Origin: Alphaproteobacteria bacterium
GTDB lineage: Bacteria > Pseudomonadota > Alphaproteobacteria > Micropepsales > Micropepsaceae
Direction: 5' to 3'
NCBI GenBank assembly: GCA_016792565.1
Contig: JAEUMK010000013.1
Span: forward strand, 1-52,930
DNA: 52,930 bases
Every line of letters begins with the position of its first letter. Position 1 is the stretch's first letter. The notes beneath the pieces were generated by a model. It made no database searches, was not told the origin of the DNA, and saw nothing but the letters and a program-made list of their open reading frames with translations. This document shows, piece after piece, positions 33,189-47,114 of this stretch. The position numbers were made by a program, and so were the translations under genes.

Positions 33189-33214
33189 GCGGCCATTCCG
33201 GAGTTTTGTTGATT

Positions 33215-33263
33215 GAGCATCATCTTTTCGAAGAACCGGTGTCCACTTCTTCGGATGATGCTC
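33215..33263. repeat. Dispersed 49-bp palindromic repeat, copy 1
   Basis: An imperfect palindrome beginning GAGCATCATC and ending GATGATGCTC, with TTCGAAGAA and TTCTTCGG as inner arms. A near-identical copy lies at 47066-47114 (three differences in 49 nt by eye). It overlaps the first base of the mcd stop and may act as a terminator or mRNA 3' stabiliser. Similar elements are common in Hyphomicrobiales intergenic regions. Confidence 0.85.
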
Positions 33264-34915
33264 TAGTTGGCGCCGTCTTCGAGCAGGCGCCTTGCGATGA
33301 CCATGGCCTGCACCTCGGCGGCGCCCTCGAAGATGTTGAGGATGCGCGCGTCGCAGAGCACGCGGCTGATCGGGTATTCCAGGGCGAAGCCGTTGCCGCC
33401 GTGGATCTGCAGCGCGTTGTCGGCCGCCGCCCAGGCGACGCGGGCGCCCAGCAGCTTCGCCATGCCGGCTTCCAGGTCGCAGCGCCGGCCCTCGTCCTTC
33501 TCGCGCGCGGCGAAATAGGTCATCTGGCGGGCGATCATGATCTCGACGGCCATCAGCGCGAGCTTGTTGGAGACGCGCGGGAAGGCGATCAGCGCCTTGC
33601 CGAACTGGATGCGGTCGAGCGCGTAGCGCAGGCCGAGTTCCAGCGCGCATTGCGCGACGCCGACGGCGCGGGCGGCGGTCTGGATGCGGGCCGATTCGAA
33701 GGTCTGCATGAGTTGCTTGAAGCCCTGGCCCTCCTCGCCGCCCAGCAGGTTGGCGGCCGGCACCTCGAAGCCGTCGAAGCCGATCTCGTATTCCTTCATG
33801 CCGCGATAGCCGAGCACGCCGATCTCGCCGCCGGTCATGCCGGCGACGGGGAAGTGCTCCTCGTCGCCGCCGCGCGGCTTGGGGGCGAGCAGCATCGAGA
33901 GGCCCTTGTAGCCGGGCGCATCGGGATCGGTGCGCACCAGCACGGTCATCACGTCGGCGCGGGCGGCGTGGGTGATCCAGGTCTTGTTGCCGGTGATCTT
34001 CCAGACATCGCCCTCCCTCACCGCGCGGGTGCGCAGGCTGCCGAGGTCGGAGCCGGTATTGGGCTCGGTGAAGACGGCGGTGGGAAGGATCTCGCCCGAG
34101 GCGATCTTCGGCAACCAGTGGGACTTCTGCTCCGCCGTGCCGCCGCAAATGATGAGCTCGGCGGCGATCTCGCTGCGCGTGCCCAGCGAGCCGACGCCGA
34201 TATAGCCGCGGCTCAGTTCCTCCGAGACGACGCACATCGCGGTCTTGGAGAGGCCCGAGCCGCCGAATTCCTCCGGGATGGTGAGACCGAAGACGCCGAG
34301 CGCGCCCATCTCCTCCACCACCGGCATCGGAATGAACTCGTCGCGCAGATGCCAGCCATGGGCGTGCGGCACGACCTTCTCGTCGGCGAACTTGCGGAAC
34401 TGGTCGCGGATCATCTCCATGGTCTCGTCGAGCCCGGTGGTGCCGTGGCTGGAGGCCGCGGGATGCTCGGCGATCAGCACGGCGAGGCGGGCGCGCGCCT
34501 CCGGCGTGCCGGCGCCCAGCACCGCGCCGCAGGCCTTGACGAAGGCCGTCACGTCATCGCCGCCGAGGCCGAGATCGGCGGGGCGCACGATTTCGTTCTG
34601 GCTCATCGGGATGCCGAAGGCGATCTGATTGGCGTATTCGGCGACGGCGAGGGTGAGGATCAGGGTCTCGATCTCGCCGAAGCGGCCATCGGCCGACAGA
34701 TGCTGCGCCCAGCGGCGCATCTGGCGCAGCGATTCCACATAGGTCGCCAGCCAGGCGAGGCCGTGGGTCGCGTGCTGCTCCCTTTCGAACAGCTTTGCCG
34801 AGACCTTGCCGTCCTGCGAGACGCGCCCGCGCACAGCGGTCTTCGCGGCGGCCAGCAGCCGTTCGGCGGCCTCGGTCGCAGATGCGGCGGCGGCGATCGG
34901 ATCGTGTGCGGTCAT
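33263..34915 (-). CDS. mcd: (2S)-methylsuccinyl-CoA dehydrogenase
   Basis: A 550-residue acyl-CoA dehydrogenase with an N-terminal extension of about 150 residues, the hallmark of Mcd, which oxidises (2S)-methylsuccinyl-CoA to mesaconyl-CoA in the ethylmalonyl-CoA pathway. Core motifs: FTEPNTGSDLGSLRTRA (FAD/substrate loop), NKTWITHAARAD, and the C-terminal QIHGGNGFALEYPISRVLCDARILNIFEG-type FAD-binding block. CTGGAG sits about 9 nt before the ATG. Assignment rests on length, extension and genomic proximity of ccr and ecm. Electrons would go to EtfAB. Confidence 0.93.
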   Translation of the reverse strand: MTAHDPIAAAASATEAAERLLAAAKTAVRGRVSQDGKVSAKLFEREQHATHGLAWLATYVESLRQMRRWAQHLSADGRFGEIETLILTLAVAEYANQIAFGIPMSQNEIVRPADLGLGGDDVTAFVKACGAVLGAGTPEARARLAVLIAEHPAASSHGTTGLDETMEMIRDQFRKFADEKVVPHAHGWHLRDEFIPMPVVEEMGALGVFGLTIPEEFGGSGLSKTAMCVVSEELSRGYIGVGSLGTRSEIAAELIICGGTAEQKSHWLPKIASGEILPTAVFTEPNTGSDLGSLRTRAVREGDVWKITGNKTWITHAARADVMTVLVRTDPDAPGYKGLSMLLAPKPRGGDEEHFPVAGMTGGEIGVLGYRGMKEYEIGFDGFEVPAANLLGGEEGQGFKQLMQTFESARIQTAARAVGVAQCALELGLRYALDRIQFGKALIAFPRVSNKLALMAVEIMIARQMTYFAAREKDEGRRCDLEAGMAKLLGARVAWAAADNALQIHGGNGFALEYPISRVLCDARILNIFEGAAEVQAMVIARRLLEDGAN

Positions 34916-36656: not shown

Positions 36657-37940
36657 TCAGCCGCCGGTCGCCTCGATCACGTCTTCCAGCGTACGCAGCC
36701 CGGTGCGGGGGGCGTTCACCAGCACGGCCATGTTGCCGGGCAGGTGCTCGTTCTTCCACATCTTGGTGTGCGCCTTGGGGATGTCGGCCCAGGAGAAGAC
36801 TTCCGACATGCAGGGATCGATGCGGCGCTCGACCACCAGGCGGTTGGCCTGGCTCGCCTGGAGGTAGTTGGCGAAGTGCGAGCCCTGCACGCGCTTCTGG
36901 CGCATCCAGACATAGCGGGCATCGAAGGTGAGGTTGTAGCCGGTGGTGCCGGCGCAGAAGACGACCATCCCGCCGCGCTTCACGACCAGGCAGGAGACCG
37001 GGAAGGTCGATTCGCCGGGGTGCTCGAACACCATGTCGACGTCGTTGCCCTTGCCGGTGATGTCCCAGATCGCCTTGCCGAACTTGCGCGCTTCCTTGGT
37101 CCAGGCGTCGTATTCGGGGGTGCCGACCTGGGGCATCTGGCCCCAGCAGTTGAAGTCCTTGCGGTTGATGACACCCTTGGCGCCGAGGCTCAGCACGAAG
37201 TCGCGCTTGGATTCGTCCGAGATGACGCCGATCGCGTTGGCGCCCGAGACGGCGCAGAGCTGGATGGCGAACGAGCCGAGGCCGCCCGAGGCGCCCCAGA
37301 TCAGCACGTTGTGGCCGGGGCGCAGGATGTGCGGCCGGTGGCCGAAGAACATGCGGTAGGTGGTGGCGAGGGTGAGCGTGTAGCAGGCCGACTCTTCCCA
37401 CGTCAGGTGGCGCGGCCGCTCCATGAGCTGGCGGTCCTGGACGCGGGCGAACTGGGCGAAGGCGCCGTCCGGCGTCTCGTAGCCCCAGATGCGCTGGCTG
37501 GGCGAGAACATCGGGTCGCCGCCGTTGCACTCCTCGTCGTCGCCGTCGTCCTGGTTGCAGTGCACGACGACCTCGTCGCCGACCTTCCAGCGCTTCACCT
37601 TGGAGCCGACCGCCCAGACGATGCCGGCCGCGTCCGATCCGGCGATGTGATAGGGCAGCTTGTGGCCGTCGATGGGCGAGATGGGGGTGCCGAGACCGGC
37701 CCAGACGCCGTTGTAGTTGACGCCCGCCGCCATCACGAGGACGAGCACGTCGTGGCTGTCGAGTTCCCAGGTGGGCACGACCTCGACCTGGAAGGACTTT
37801 TCCGGCTCGCCGTGGCGGTCCTTGCGGATGGCCCAGGCGTACATGTTCTTCGGGACATGGCCGAGCGGCGGAATCTCGCCGATCTCGTAGAGATCCTTAG
37901 GCCCGTTCGCAGCCATCGCCGCCTCGGCAGTCGTCGCCAT
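36657..37940 (-). CDS. ccr: Crotonyl-CoA carboxylase/reductase
   Basis: The key CO2-fixing enzyme of the ethylmalonyl-CoA pathway: it reductively carboxylates crotonyl-CoA to (2S)-ethylmalonyl-CoA with NADPH. The 427-residue MDR-family protein has the Ccr N-terminus (DLYEIGEIPPLGHVPKNMYA), YHIAGSDAAGIVWAVG, the CNQDDGDDEECNGGDPMFS insertion typical of Ccr, the NADPH motif IWGASGGLGSFA and the FEHPGESTFP segment. I start at the ATG 37940, which follows a strong GGAGGGG site by 8 nt and gives the family length. An alternative upstream start would add 51 residues not seen in the family. Confidence 0.97.
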   Translation of the reverse strand: MATTAEAAMAANGPKDLYEIGEIPPLGHVPKNMYAWAIRKDRHGEPEKSFQVEVVPTWELDSHDVLVLVMAAGVNYNGVWAGLGTPISPIDGHKLPYHIAGSDAAGIVWAVGSKVKRWKVGDEVVVHCNQDDGDDEECNGGDPMFSPSQRIWGYETPDGAFAQFARVQDRQLMERPRHLTWEESACYTLTLATTYRMFFGHRPHILRPGHNVLIWGASGGLGSFAIQLCAVSGANAIGVISDESKRDFVLSLGAKGVINRKDFNCWGQMPQVGTPEYDAWTKEARKFGKAIWDITGKGNDVDMVFEHPGESTFPVSCLVVKRGGMVVFCAGTTGYNLTFDARYVWMRQKRVQGSHFANYLQASQANRLVVERRIDPCMSEVFSWADIPKAHTKMWKNEHLPGNMAVLVNAPRTGLRTLEDVIEATGG

Positions 37941-38163: not shown

Positions 38164-38191
38164 CGCAATCAGCGCCCGGCGTGACGGGCGA
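38164..38191. repeat. 28-bp direct repeat, left copy
   Basis: A 28-bp stretch from CGCAATCAGC to GTGACGGGCGA is repeated without mismatch and in the same orientation at 39564-39591. On the minus strand it encodes the last residues and stop of an acyl-CoA dehydrogenase C-terminus (ARHAGR-stop). The two copies bracket the MarR-methyltransferase pair. Confidence 0.9.
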
Positions 38192-38430
38192 AAGCCCGGT
38201 CAGACGCGTGCGACGGCCGTCGAGCAGGCTGAAGCCGCTCCCCCGCCCGGGTCTCCTCGGGCATGGGGCTGCGCCTGCTCGATACGCCGATCCGGGTCAG
38301 AGGCGTCTGGGACCGCATCACGCCCTCGTCGTGCCGCCAGCGCCAGGGCGTGTCGCGCGGCGGCGGCGCGAGCTGGGAGGAGAACTGGTTCATGGACTGG
38401 ACCCGCGCGCAGGGGCGAGCGGCGGCGGAA
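38192..38430. other. Gene-free stretch upstream of MarR operator
   Basis: About 240 bp with open frames on both strands but no gene I can support. A plus-strand frame from 38263 yields a plausible-looking WEENWFMDWTRAQ segment and could be a fragment of a lost gene; a minus-strand frame ends in the acyl-CoA dehydrogenase remnant. Neither has a convincing start or homology. Confidence 0.4.
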
Positions 38431-38475
38431 ATGACACCTTGGTTGACAATCCTGAATTGTCACCTAAGGTGTCAT
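38431..38475. promoter_or_regulatory. MarR-type operator overlapping promoter
   Basis: A 45-bp dyad: arms ATGACACCTT and AAGGTGTCAT are perfect and the inner TGACAAT/ATTGTCA also pair (18 of 20 positions per arm). Each arm is itself a near-palindrome of type TGWCACCT-T-AGGTGWCA, so two operator copies face each other. The arm includes TTGACA (38443-38448) and, 16 nt on, TAAGGT (38465-38470), a good promoter. Expected transcription start coincides with the ATG at 38477. Strong candidate for autorepression. Confidence 0.8.
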
Positions 38476-38476
38476 C

Positions 38477-38974
38477 ATGGGAACGGACGCCGCCGACATC
38501 GTGAACCTTCTCCCGCTTGCGGTGCTGCGGCTCACCGCGGCCGGGGACGCGCTGCACGCATCGCGCGGCCTCAACTCGGCGCTCCGGTCCATCCTGGTCA
38601 CGGCCGCCGCGCAGACGCCGCGGACGGTCTCGCAGATGGCGAGAGAGAGGCGGGTCTCGCGGCAGTATCTGCAACGCGCGGTGGACGATCTGATCGCCAT
38701 GGGGCTTCTGGCCGCCCTGCCGAACCCTGGGCACCGACGGGCGCCGCTCATTGCGCTCACCCGGCGCGGCGCCGCCATGACCGCGGCGATCCGCAATGCC
38801 GAGGCGCCGCTGGTCGCCGGCCTCTTCGCGGGGATCGATGGCTCGGCGCTCGCATCGACGGCGGCCGTGCTGCGCCTCGTGTGCGAGCGGCTGTCCGCCG
38901 GCGCGCAAGGCAGGGCGCAACCGCGCGCGCCGGCGCGGACCGGCGGGCGAAAGAAGAATGGCCCTCCGCCATGA
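38477..38974 (+). CDS. MarR family transcriptional regulator
   Basis: A 165-residue winged-helix regulator. The HTH and wing read TVSQMARERRVSRQYLQRAV, then LIAMGLLAALPNPGHRRAPLIALTRRG, typical of MarR proteins, with flanking dimerisation helices and a basic C-terminal tail (TGGRKKNG). It probably binds the 45-bp dyad that covers its own promoter. The ATG at 38477 follows AAGGTG, which could act as a ribosome-binding site if transcription starts upstream; otherwise the mRNA is leaderless. Its stop overlaps the methyltransferase start. Confidence 0.9.
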   Translation: MGTDAADIVNLLPLAVLRLTAAGDALHASRGLNSALRSILVTAAAQTPRTVSQMARERRVSRQYLQRAVDDLIAMGLLAALPNPGHRRAPLIALTRRGAAMTAAIRNAEAPLVAGLFAGIDGSALASTAAVLRLVCERLSAGAQGRAQPRAPARTGGRKKNGPPP

Positions 38975-39549
38975 GCAAGCGCCACCTGGCGATGACGCCC
39001 ACAAAGCTGTTCGGCCGGCTCATGGAGGCGATGAACGCCGCCGCCTATCGCGAGGCGATACAGGGCCTGCCGGCGCGCGGCGCGGTGCTGGAGATTGGCT
39101 TCGGCACGGGCCGTTTCCTGGAAATGCTGGCGGCGAGCGGCTCCTACGCCCTCATCGCCGGAATCGATCCGACCCCGGCCATGGTCGCCATGGCGGGCGC
39201 CCGGCCGGCGCTGCGCCAGCCCGGTTCGCAGGCCGACATCCGTCTCGGGACCGCCGAGAGCCTGCCCTGGGGCGAGGCCACGTTCGACGCCGTGGTGGCG
39301 ATCCACTGCTTCCAGTTCTGGAGCGATCCGCATGCGGCGGTGCAGGAAGTCCGGCGGGTCCTCAAGCCGGGCGGCCTGCTGCGCCTGGTGCTGCGTGCCC
39401 ACGGCGCGCACCCGCCGGACTGGCTGCCGAATCCCATCAGCCGCGCGGGCGACGAAGACGCCGGCGCCAGCGCCTTGCTGTCGGCGGCGGCGTTCGAAGC
39501 GGTCCTTGCCGGACCGGGGCACCGCATCGACGCAAGAAAGCCGGCCTAG
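38971..39549 (+). CDS. Class I SAM-dependent methyltransferase
   Basis: A 192-residue UbiE/COQ5-like methyltransferase with motif I VLEIGFGTGRFLEML (about 35-49), acidic AGIDPTPAMV, and VLKPGGLLRLVLRA. The C-terminal part is short compared with full-size relatives. ATGA overlap with the MarR gene makes this a coupled regulator-enzyme pair, likely induced by the MarR ligand. It lies within the interval bounded by the 28-bp repeats. Substrate unknown. Confidence 0.88.
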   Translation: MSKRHLAMTPTKLFGRLMEAMNAAAYREAIQGLPARGAVLEIGFGTGRFLEMLAASGSYALIAGIDPTPAMVAMAGARPALRQPGSQADIRLGTAESLPWGEATFDAVVAIHCFQFWSDPHAAVQEVRRVLKPGGLLRLVLRAHGAHPPDWLPNPISRAGDEDAGASALLSAAAFEAVLAGPGHRIDARKPA

Positions 39550-39563
39550 CGGCGCGTCGGGAA

Positions 39564-39591
39564 CGCAATCAGCGCCCGGCGTGACGGGCGA
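39564..39591. repeat. 28-bp direct repeat, right copy
   Basis: Identical to 38164-38191 over 28 bp. Here the sequence continues into a longer acyl-CoA dehydrogenase 3' remnant, so this copy looks like the donor. Confidence 0.9.
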
Positions 39592-39697
39592 CGATGGCGG
39601 CGGCGGCGAAGCCGCGGGGGACGTCTCCGAGACTGCGCCCGCCGCCGTCCGCAATGCGGGTGGCGATGAAGGCGTCCGCGATGTCCGATGGCGGGCC
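39569..39697 (-). pseudogene. 3' remnant of an AidB-like acyl-CoA dehydrogenase gene
   Basis: The minus strand encodes 42 residues plus stop (PSDIADAFIATRIADGGG... to IVARHAGR) that align with the C-terminus of the intact gene at 40742-42397 (PSAVADAFIATRIAGGGG... to IVARHAGH) at roughly three-quarters identity. Upstream the match stops and the frame runs into the protease gene. The divergence shows it is not a fresh duplication: it is either an old partial copy or the stump of a paralogue whose body was lost when the protease gene arrived. Confidence 0.8.
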
Positions 39698-39731
39698 GAA
39701 GATCGTCTTCGCGGCCGAGGCCGTGTGAGGC

Positions 39732-40631
39732 CTATTCGATCCGCGCGCCGGGGAAGATTTCGGTGATCCACGCGATATGGCCGCTGACGCGGGCGAAGCC
39801 GGACGTATCGCCGTATTGGGCCTTGCCCGAGCCGTCGCCGTTGACGCCGGCGATGGCCCATCCGGCCTCGGTCTCGATCCAGGCACCGCCGCCGGAATCC
39901 CCGCCGCCCAGCAGCCCGGCGGTGCGCGAGACGGGTTTGCCCCCGGCTTCTTCGGTGATCGGATTGACGATAGAGCCGTCTTCTTTGGGAAGAGAGATCT
40001 CGAGCGAATTGCCGTCCGCCTCGCCGGCTTCGTTCAGCACCAGAGGCAGCACGCGGTCGATGACGCCCTGGGCGGCGGCGGCGACCGCACCGGCCGGCTC
40101 GTTTTCGTCCTCGCCCTGGCTCGCCATGCCGCGCGTGCCGTAGCCGACGAAGGTGAGCGTCATGCCCTCTTCCTCCGTGCCCGTGTAGAGAAGGGGTTGC
40201 TCGCCGGCGTCTTCGACCGGCTCGCTCAGCGTGACGATCGCGACGTCGAAGCCGAGCGAGTACGCCGTCTCCTGGTTCGCGGCCTCGACCCTGACATAGT
40301 TCGGATGAACGATGACCGACTCGGCGCGATAGTATCGTCCGTCGCGCGAGCGATAGGCCCACCGGTTCGCAAAATCGTCGCCGTCGAAGGCATGGGCGGC
40401 GGTGAGGATGTAGCCGTTCACCTCATCGTTGCCGATCCATGTGCCCGAGGCGTTGCCGCAACCTTCGCCCTCGGCGTCGCACAGTGCGAAGCTCGCGGCG
40501 AATTGCGGCTCGGCGGCCAACGCTTCCGAGGCGGCGTAGCCCTCTTCCTTGTAGGTGCTGTCGAGAATGATGACGGCGTGGGCCGGAACGATGAAGGCGG
40601 CGGCGACGAGGGTCGTAGGGAGGCGTTTCAT
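39732..40631 (-). CDS. Secreted trypsin-like serine protease (S1 family)
   Basis: A 299-residue protein with a signal peptide (about 1-19, ending AHA) and the trypsin triad: His80 in LTAAHAF, Asp129 in GFDVAIV and Ser246 in GGGDSGGGAW. The central region is Glu-rich with a GYGTRGMASQGEDENEPAGA loop. Two cysteines near 51 and 58 may pair. Exported; substrate unknown. It sits alone between the intact and remnant acyl-CoA dehydrogenase 3' ends, which suggests an acquired gene. Confidence 0.9.
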   Translation of the reverse strand: MKRLPTTLVAAAFIVPAHAVIILDSTYKEEGYAASEALAAEPQFAASFALCDAEGEGCGNASGTWIGNDEVNGYILTAAHAFDGDDFANRWAYRSRDGRYYRAESVIVHPNYVRVEAANQETAYSLGFDVAIVTLSEPVEDAGEQPLLYTGTEEEGMTLTFVGYGTRGMASQGEDENEPAGAVAAAAQGVIDRVLPLVLNEAGEADGNSLEISLPKEDGSIVNPITEEAGGKPVSRTAGLLGGGDSGGGAWIETEAGWAIAGVNGDGSGKAQYGDTSGFARVSGHIAWITEIFPGARIE

Positions 40632-40692
40632 GCCCCGGCACCTAACACGACTGTCGACGCAAGCGGATGAGGCGATCTGCCGCCTCAGGCAC

Positions 40693-40734
40693 GGGTCCCC
40701 GGGTTCGGCGCTGTGCGCCGCCCCGAGGATGACA
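40693..40734. repeat. Palindromic intergenic element
   Basis: Between the protease start and the aidB-like stop lies a structured segment with a perfect GGCGC-TGT-GCGCC core flanked by GGGTCCCCGGG and CCCCGAGGAT arms. Read on the minus strand it begins GTCATCCTCGGGG, a type of short intergenic repeat I associate with alphaproteobacteria. Only one copy is seen here. Confidence 0.45.
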
Positions 40735-40741
40735 TGGCGTG

Positions 40742-42397
40742 TCAGTGCCCGGCGTGCCGCGCGACGATAGGAGCAGCGGCGAAGTCGCGGGGAACGGCGC
40801 CGTAGCTGCGTCCGCCGCCACCCGCGATGCGGGTGGCGATGAAGGCGTCGGCGACGGCGGACGGGGCGTGGCGGGCGAGCAGCGCGGCCTGAAGGGTCAG
40901 CGCCAGGCGCTCGGCGACGAAGCGCGCCTCGGCCTCGACCGGCCGCGCCGCCGCCAGGCCGTCCAGCACCTCGGCGATGGCGGCGTCCAGCCTTGCGTCG
41001 GCCCCGGCGGCGCGGCGCAGCTCGGCGGCGAAGGCGGCGAGCGCCTGCGGCTCGCGCGCGAAGGTGCGCAGGATGTCGAGCGCGATGACGTTGCCCGAAC
41101 CCTCCCAGATCGCGTTCAGCGGCGATTCGCGGAAGAGGCGCGGCAGCGGCGTCTCCTCGACATAACCGGCGCCCCCCAGGCACTCCATGCATTCGTAGAC
41201 GAAATTGGCGCAGCGTTTGGTCAGCCAGTACTTGGCGACCGCGACGGCGAGCCTTGCGAAGGCGCGCTCGCTCTCGTCCGCGCCGTCGAACGCCCGCGCC
41301 ACCCGCATGGTGAGCGCCACCGCCGCCTCGTACTCCAGCGCGAGGTCGGCGAGCACCGCCTCCATCAGAGGCTGGTCGATCAGCGTCTTCTGGAAGACCC
41401 GGCGATGACTGGCGTGGTGCAGCGCCTGGGCCAGCGCCATGCGCATGATCCCGAGCGTGCCCGCGATGGTGCCGAGCCGGGTGTGGTGCACCATGTCGAT
41501 GATGACGTTGACGCCGCGCCCTTCCTCACCCAGCAGTTCGGCATAGGCGCCGTGATACTCGATCTCGCTCGAGGCGTTCGACTTGTTGCCGAGCTTGTCC
41601 TTCAGCCGCATCACCTGGATGCGGTTGCGCTCGCCGTCCGGCGCGATGCGCGGCACGAGAAAGCAGGAGAGGCCGCCCGGCGCATAGGCGAGCGTCAGGA
41701 AGCCGTCCGACATCGGCGCCGAGCAGAACCATTTGTGGCCGGTCAGGCGATAGGCGCGCCCGCCCGCGCCTGGCATGCGCTCGGCCCGCGTCGCGTTGGC
41801 GCGCACGTCGCTGCCGCCCTGCTTCTCGGTCATCGCCATGCCGATCGTGACGCCGGCCTTCTCGCCGATGGGGCGCAGCGGCGCGTCGTAGCTTCCGCCG
41901 ACGAGCTTCGACAGCCAGGGCGCGGCGACCTCCGGGGTCGAACGCAGGGCCGGCACGGCGGCGTAGGTCATGGTCATCGGGCACATGGTCCCGGCTTCGG
42001 CCTGGGTGAAGAGGGCGAGCAGCACGGCATGGGCGACATGGCCGCCCGGACCTTCCGGCGTCCAGGCGATGTCGTGGATGCGATGCTCCATCGCGAGGCC
42101 CATCAGCTGGTGATAGGCGGGGTGGAAGCGGGCCTCGTCCAGGCGGCGGCCATAGCGGTCGAAGGCGATGAGTTCGGGCGGATGGCGGTTGGCGAGGTCG
42201 CCGGCCTCCAGCACCGCCTCGGAGCCCGCGAGCGCGCCCAGCGCAAGGGCGCGCGCATCGACCCAGGCCGCGCCCTCGCGCAGCACGCTCTCGCGCAGCG
42301 CCGGATCGCTCGCATAGAGATTGCGGCCCGCGAATTCGGGCGGCTGGTTCATCACCTCGTGGGTTGCGAGGCTGGTCGAGGGCGCGAAACGCGGCAT
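40742..42397 (-). CDS. AidB-like acyl-CoA dehydrogenase
   Basis: A 551-residue flavoprotein of the AidB group: N-terminal APSTSLATHEVMNQPPEF, FAD region MAMTEKQGGSDVRAN, CGGAGYVEE-type segment (LGGAGYVEETPLPRLFRESP) and IWEGSGNVIALDILR, followed by the extra C-terminal domain that gives AidB its DNA-binding surface. E. coli AidB protects DNA from alkylation and has weak isovaleryl-CoA dehydrogenase activity. Whether this copy acts in DNA protection or catabolism is open. Its last 43 codons are partly duplicated at 39569-39697. Confidence 0.92.
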   Translation of the reverse strand: MPRFAPSTSLATHEVMNQPPEFAGRNLYASDPALRESVLREGAAWVDARALALGALAGSEAVLEAGDLANRHPPELIAFDRYGRRLDEARFHPAYHQLMGLAMEHRIHDIAWTPEGPGGHVAHAVLLALFTQAEAGTMCPMTMTYAAVPALRSTPEVAAPWLSKLVGGSYDAPLRPIGEKAGVTIGMAMTEKQGGSDVRANATRAERMPGAGGRAYRLTGHKWFCSAPMSDGFLTLAYAPGGLSCFLVPRIAPDGERNRIQVMRLKDKLGNKSNASSEIEYHGAYAELLGEEGRGVNVIIDMVHHTRLGTIAGTLGIMRMALAQALHHASHRRVFQKTLIDQPLMEAVLADLALEYEAAVALTMRVARAFDGADESERAFARLAVAVAKYWLTKRCANFVYECMECLGGAGYVEETPLPRLFRESPLNAIWEGSGNVIALDILRTFAREPQALAAFAAELRRAAGADARLDAAIAEVLDGLAAARPVEAEARFVAERLALTLQAALLARHAPSAVADAFIATRIAGGGGRSYGAVPRDFAAAPIVARHAGH

Positions 42398-47055: not shown

Positions 47056-47065
47056 GTCTTTGATC

Positions 47066-47114
47066 GAGCATCATCTTCTCGAAGAACCGGAGTCCACTTC
47101 TTCGGATGATGCTC
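47066..47114. repeat. Dispersed 49-bp palindromic repeat, copy 2
   Basis: Same element as 33215-33263: GAGCATCATC...GATGATGCTC with TTCTCGAAGAA and TTCTTCGG inner arms. It lies about 150 bp before the ecm start. Orientation relative to the copy near mcd is the same on the plus strand. Confidence 0.85.

Follow-up and report, generated by a model that had tools for sequence, protein, structure and literature searches.

How did a complete MarR-family regulator and methyltransferase pair come to lie between two identical copies of the end of an acyl-CoA dehydrogenase gene? The question concerns a 1.4-kb block within a 52,930-nt stretch of DNA (the window), for which an earlier note had suggested either a non-autonomous mobile module or recombination between dehydrogenase 3' ends. 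The block and its surroundings comprise the following features.

36657-37940, minus strand: ccrA, crotonyl-CoA carboxylase/reductase, the conserved left neighbour (TIGR01751, 614 bits against a cut-off of 379)
38164-38191, no strand: left 28-bp repeat
38189-38238, minus strand: part of a YafY/WYL-type regulator gene (...GFSLLDGRRTRLTGLS...), broken off at the left repeat
38236-38409, plus strand: DUF1579-like gene remnant that lacks ~48 internal codons
38431-38475, no strand: operator-like palindrome ATGACACCTTGGTTGACAAT-N5-ATTGTCACCTAAGGTGTCAT, arms 90% complementary
38477-38974, plus strand: intact MarR-family regulator, 165 aa (PF12802, 35.2 bits, cut-off 27)
38971-39549, plus strand: complete class I SAM-dependent methyltransferase, 192 aa (PF08241, 82.3 bits), its start overlapping the MarR stop
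39564-39591, no strand: right 28-bp repeat, leading into the dehydrogenase remnant
39569-39691, minus strand: 3'-terminal remnant (~41 codons), apparently of a second, lost acyl-CoA dehydrogenase copy, 81% identical in nucleotides to the intact copy
39732-40631, minus strand: gene for a trypsin-like protease, with a dehydrogenase end on either side (PF13365, PF00089)
40742-42397, minus strand: intact AidB/isovaleryl-CoA-dehydrogenase-like acyl-CoA dehydrogenase (PF18158, PF00441, PF02770)

Repeats, dehydrogenase ends and the site beside ccrA

The two copies of the repeat, CGCAATCAGCGCCCGGCGTGACGGGCGA, agree at 28/28 positions and share one orientation, and 0.00 copies are expected in shuffled sequence. 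The perfect direct repeats described earlier are genuine, and no exact direct repeat in the window is longer. With up to three mismatches allowed, the whole 3.07-Mb genome holds these two copies only, and a sequence search of 119 relatives found none; the 28 bp is thus no common genomic repeat, the circumstance that the earlier note had named as fatal to its reading. On the minus strand the 28-mer consists of the last dehydrogenase codons (...ARHAGR*) and the stop, as had been recognized, followed by five intergenic bases. Within the 28-mer lies the 6-bp inverted repeat CGCCCG-N6-CGGGCG. The right copy passes into the 123-bp dehydrogenase remnant, while the left copy ends after 28 bp.

The remnant and the intact dehydrogenase differ with a dN of 0.11 and a dS of 0.61 (dN/dS about 0.2), and 14 of the 23 differences fall at third codon positions (p = 0.006). 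This pattern argues against a displaced gene end in simple neutral decay, and indicates that the remnant diverged mostly inside a working gene. It may be the tail of a once-working second copy, or an imported gene end, as the same pattern is expected of a gene from another host. Of the 23 coding bases in the repeat, 3 are different at the end of the intact gene, and the five adjacent non-coding bases, CGCAA in the repeat, are not shared either. Because the repeat holds these bases and the intact end does not, recombination between the two dehydrogenase ends now present, one of the origins first proposed, is disfavoured.

Two further arrangements lie nearby. At 39569-40864 the protease gene is itself enclosed by dehydrogenase 3' ends in direct orientation, 81% identical and separated by 1173 bp. 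This second gene with a dehydrogenase end on each side adjoins the MarR-methyltransferase arrangement, resembles it and was absent from the earlier note. The same-genus genome G003 carries two tandem protease homologues (L130 6505-8379, about 971.5-973.4 kb) at a different position, beyond a DUF1684 gene. Elsewhere in the window, a palindromic intergenic repeat, GAGCATCATCTT(T/C)TCGAAGAACCGG(T/A)GTCCACTTCTTCGGATGATGCTC, occurs at 33214-33263, where it lies immediately downstream of the acyl-CoA dehydrogenase gene at 33263-34915, and at 47065-47114, upstream of a gene near 47.2 kb that resembles a mutase. None of the relative loci examined showed the 17-base core of this palindrome.

Same-genus relatives reveal what the site looked like before the block arrived. 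In two of four other genomes of the genus (G002 and G004), a dehydrogenase with 79-80% amino acid identity to the intact window copy lies directly beside ccrA across a gap of 257-268 bp, and neither has a MarR-methyltransferase pair, a dehydrogenase remnant or a protease between the two genes. CcrA is 93-94% identical in amino acids among same-genus relatives, and the first ~110 bp upstream of its gene are conserved, up to about 38055. Once the insert and one repeat are taken out of the window, ccrA, the intergenic region, the stop codon and the dehydrogenase tail follow one another at nearly the G002/G004 spacing. Since this insert-free layout is collinear with both relatives, the left repeat is the dehydrogenase tail in its ancestral place, and sequence comparison establishes the 1.4-kb block as an insertion with a 28-bp target duplication. 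The empty sites, on which the earlier note had made its case depend, thereby bear out its proposal of insertion at a gene's 3' end with that end duplicated.

Beyond 38055 the upstream neighbour of ccrA changes from genome to genome: the dehydrogenase in G002 and G004, a glycosyltransferase-like gene in G003, a CAP-domain-like gene in G001, and the insert here. Gene content differs among the same-genus genomes across the whole stretch from ccrA to the DUF1684 gene, which marks the region as plastic, and the site upstream of ccrA seems prone to change.

Contents of the insert

The repeats were thought to enclose exactly one regulator-enzyme pair. This is incorrect, as the first ~220 bp of the insert are debris of two other genes. 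Two genomes contain genes homologous to the YafY/WYL-type fragment, with 81-82% nucleotide identity along 50-52 bp. The DUF1579-like remnant, recognized by tblastn against an intact same-genus gene (E 5e-16), corresponds to the C-terminal half of the intact protein with ~48 middle residues missing; both labels were assigned by eye from the sequences of intact homologues. The YafY-type match starts within the last 3-4 bases of the left repeat, so that repeat and fragment share sequence at the junction, an overlap that is not significant by itself. The frame of the DUF1579-like remnant also stays open through MarR, out of frame, and then coincides with that of the methyltransferase. The resulting ORF (38263-39549) is 428 aa long and probably an effect of the high G+C content; a gene caller could report it as one protein.

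The pair itself is whole. The right repeat begins 14 bp past the methyltransferase stop, and truncation of the enzyme by that repeat was rejected, its C-terminus aligning to the ends of its homologues. The palindrome stands directly before the MarR gene, the window dyad score being 15.6 against 9.2, the maximum of 50 shuffles, and a double TGACA/TGTCA-like dyad is found upstream of regulator homologues as well (L105, L107, L108, L111, L112 and L117). The pair had been credited with its own promoter: a simple scan found no sigma-70 consensus, and what stands of that claim is the strong operator-like palindrome. For neither protein did an NCBIfam equivalog model reach its cut-off. An intact MarR, an operator dyad before it and a methyltransferase downstream on the same strand are nonetheless the parts of a MarR-regulated methyltransferase operon. 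By analogy with the MarR family, MarR would sit on the palindrome over its own start and keep both its own gene and that of the methyltransferase repressed as long as no small ligand frees it, and we infer that the pair forms a putative self-repressed, ligand-opened operon.

Possible routes of acquisition

Could the block be mobile? A DNA search of 61 genomes returned the cassette as a single copy with no full-length match elsewhere. At the protein level the best methyltransferase match reaches 55% identity among about 580 genomes of the class, the best MarR match by E-value reaches 37%, and no close relative of the methyltransferase turned up in viral contigs, plasmid records or named genome contigs. 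Base composition is typical of the window (GC3 0.87-0.89 against 0.84-0.94). Behind the homologous dehydrogenase gene in 17 other genomes, repeats of its tail amounted to short or weak, chance-level matches. A whole-genome search for tyrosine recombinases (PF00589) gave three matches, all on other contigs; from their sequences, two are presumably XerC/XerD-like and one, at a contig edge, resembles a P4-type integrase. The contig thus carries no PF00589 integrase, in agreement with the earlier reading. A non-autonomous mobile module, the other origin then suggested, is at odds with a cassette that is single-copy and missing from every other genome searched, with the debris at its left end, with the lack of a recombinase and with a 28-bp sequence found in none of the 119 relatives. 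Two familiar kinds of element were also considered and rejected: a transposon or MITE, as no inverted pair joins the block ends (AAGCCCGGTC... and ...CGTCGGGAA) and the genome has one copy, and an integron gene cassette, as the 28-bp repeat lacks GTTRRRY and no PF00589 integrase lies on the contig.

The block is probably the product of a single horizontal acquisition, an illegitimate insertion of foreign DNA at a variable spot. A foreign chromosomal fragment, comprising the complete MarR-methyltransferase operon with scraps of a neighbouring YafY-type regulator and a DUF1579-like gene, would have entered the tail of a disrupted acyl-CoA dehydrogenase duplicate next to ccrA, with 28 bp of that tail duplicated. 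In favour of this are the vacant site in two same-genus genomes, the single copy without counterpart in relatives, the modest protein matches, the changing neighbourhood upstream of ccrA and the recurrence elsewhere of the gene order and of the dyad. At the left edge, the foreign sequence starts in the middle of the YafY-type gene, truncated exactly at the repeat's end, and continues with an internally deleted remnant, which is to be expected of a random fragment rather than of the end of a mobile element. The join may have come about by illegitimate recombination, by homology-assisted illegitimate recombination with homology possibly on one side, or by template switching, in each case without a dedicated recombinase. 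Ku was not found, which makes unlikely one simple route, in which a staggered break is filled in and a fragment is end-joined into it. In Escherichia coli, Staphylococcus aureus and Streptococcus pyogenes, the fraction of small variable segments with flanking direct repeats is 10-18%, and much of the diversity in such segments is ascribed to illegitimate recombination (PMC2884548). Further points speak against illegitimate insertion. For a chance event, 28 bp is a long flanking duplication, and the position at a gene's 3' end, adjoining a second gene between dehydrogenase ends, is typical of site-specific elements.

The main rival is a degenerate site-specific integrative element, in which a recombinase used the 28-bp dehydrogenase end as its core site and regenerated the gene end, the integrase and most of the cargo being deleted later and the protease module representing a second element stacked at the same site. 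Consistent with such a relic are direct repeats holding a gene's terminal codons and stop, relatives in which the site is empty, the succession of three dehydrogenase ends separated by one gene each, and one integrase elsewhere in the genome that does not look like Xer. The inverted repeat within the 28 bp fits as well, although ARHAGR codons also produce that by chance. It is nevertheless unlikely, given a block that begins within a regulator gene, the absence of recombinase fragments from both block and contig, neither site nor cassette copied among 119 relatives, and dehydrogenase-tail repeats in other genomes that do not rise above chance. In a bolder version the dehydrogenase 3' end would be a capture site at which first the protease and then the regulator-methyltransferase pair accumulated, each leaving a fresh gene end through a recombinase acting in trans. 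This would amount to a non-autonomous capture system; the evidence does not favour it, and we regard it as improbable.

Homologous recombination with a donor that carried the MarR-methyltransferase pair beside a near-identical dehydrogenase tail, by a single crossover or by homologous recombination at one end combined with an illegitimate join at the opposite end, would leave a partial duplication of the tail. The repeats are indeed dehydrogenase sequence, a second dehydrogenase copy clearly existed, and transformable bacteria are documented to undergo homology-facilitated illegitimate recombination (cited in PMC2884548). This route is doubtful, and somewhat more so than a relic element: no sampled genome has either gene of the pair near a homologous dehydrogenase, the intact gene end mismatches the repeat in its coding and adjacent non-coding bases, and 28 bp falls below the usual RecA need of about 30 bp in E. 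coli (as cited in PMC2884548). Finally, a draft genome of 114 contigs invites the suspicion that two of them were misjoined at a short repeat. With the sequence to the left and right of the insert collinear with that of relatives, a GC3 that fits the window and debris that joins smoothly to MarR, such an artefact is very improbable.

Relation to known systems

The locus bears a mixed resemblance to integrative elements of the tyrosine-recombinase type that occupy gene 3' ends. Those likewise produce direct repeats of terminal codons and leave an empty site in relatives, and both are found here. The insert differs from them in having no integrase, with no PF00589 recombinase nearby, in a left end that lies inside a truncated regulator gene, and in its single occurrence.

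The cargo has counterparts too. In five other examined loci of Alphaproteobacteria (L104, L105, L107, L108 and L114) MarR directly precedes a class I SAM methyltransferase on the same strand, and three of these five carry similar palindromic operators before the regulator. Unlike those pairs, this one is bounded by 28-bp repeats, and its methyltransferase is only 28-37% identical to theirs. Our verdict is that an ordinary operon sits in a real and readable insertion, and that the block is not a new kind of element. Its value is as a well-preserved case of a two-gene operon that probably settled beside a core metabolic gene without mobile-element machinery, and in which the vacant site, the duplicated target and the cut donor genes are all still legible.

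A further parallel is with the small variable segments, or microdiversity loci, surveyed in PMC2884548, which like this insert are strain- or species-specific, lie between conserved genes with a short flanking direct repeat and contain no mobile-element genes, and which in some instances disrupt genes. That survey dealt mainly with segments of 20-500 bp within species, whereas the present insert, at 1.4 kb, contains an intact operon of two genes, and the comparison here was between species of one genus.
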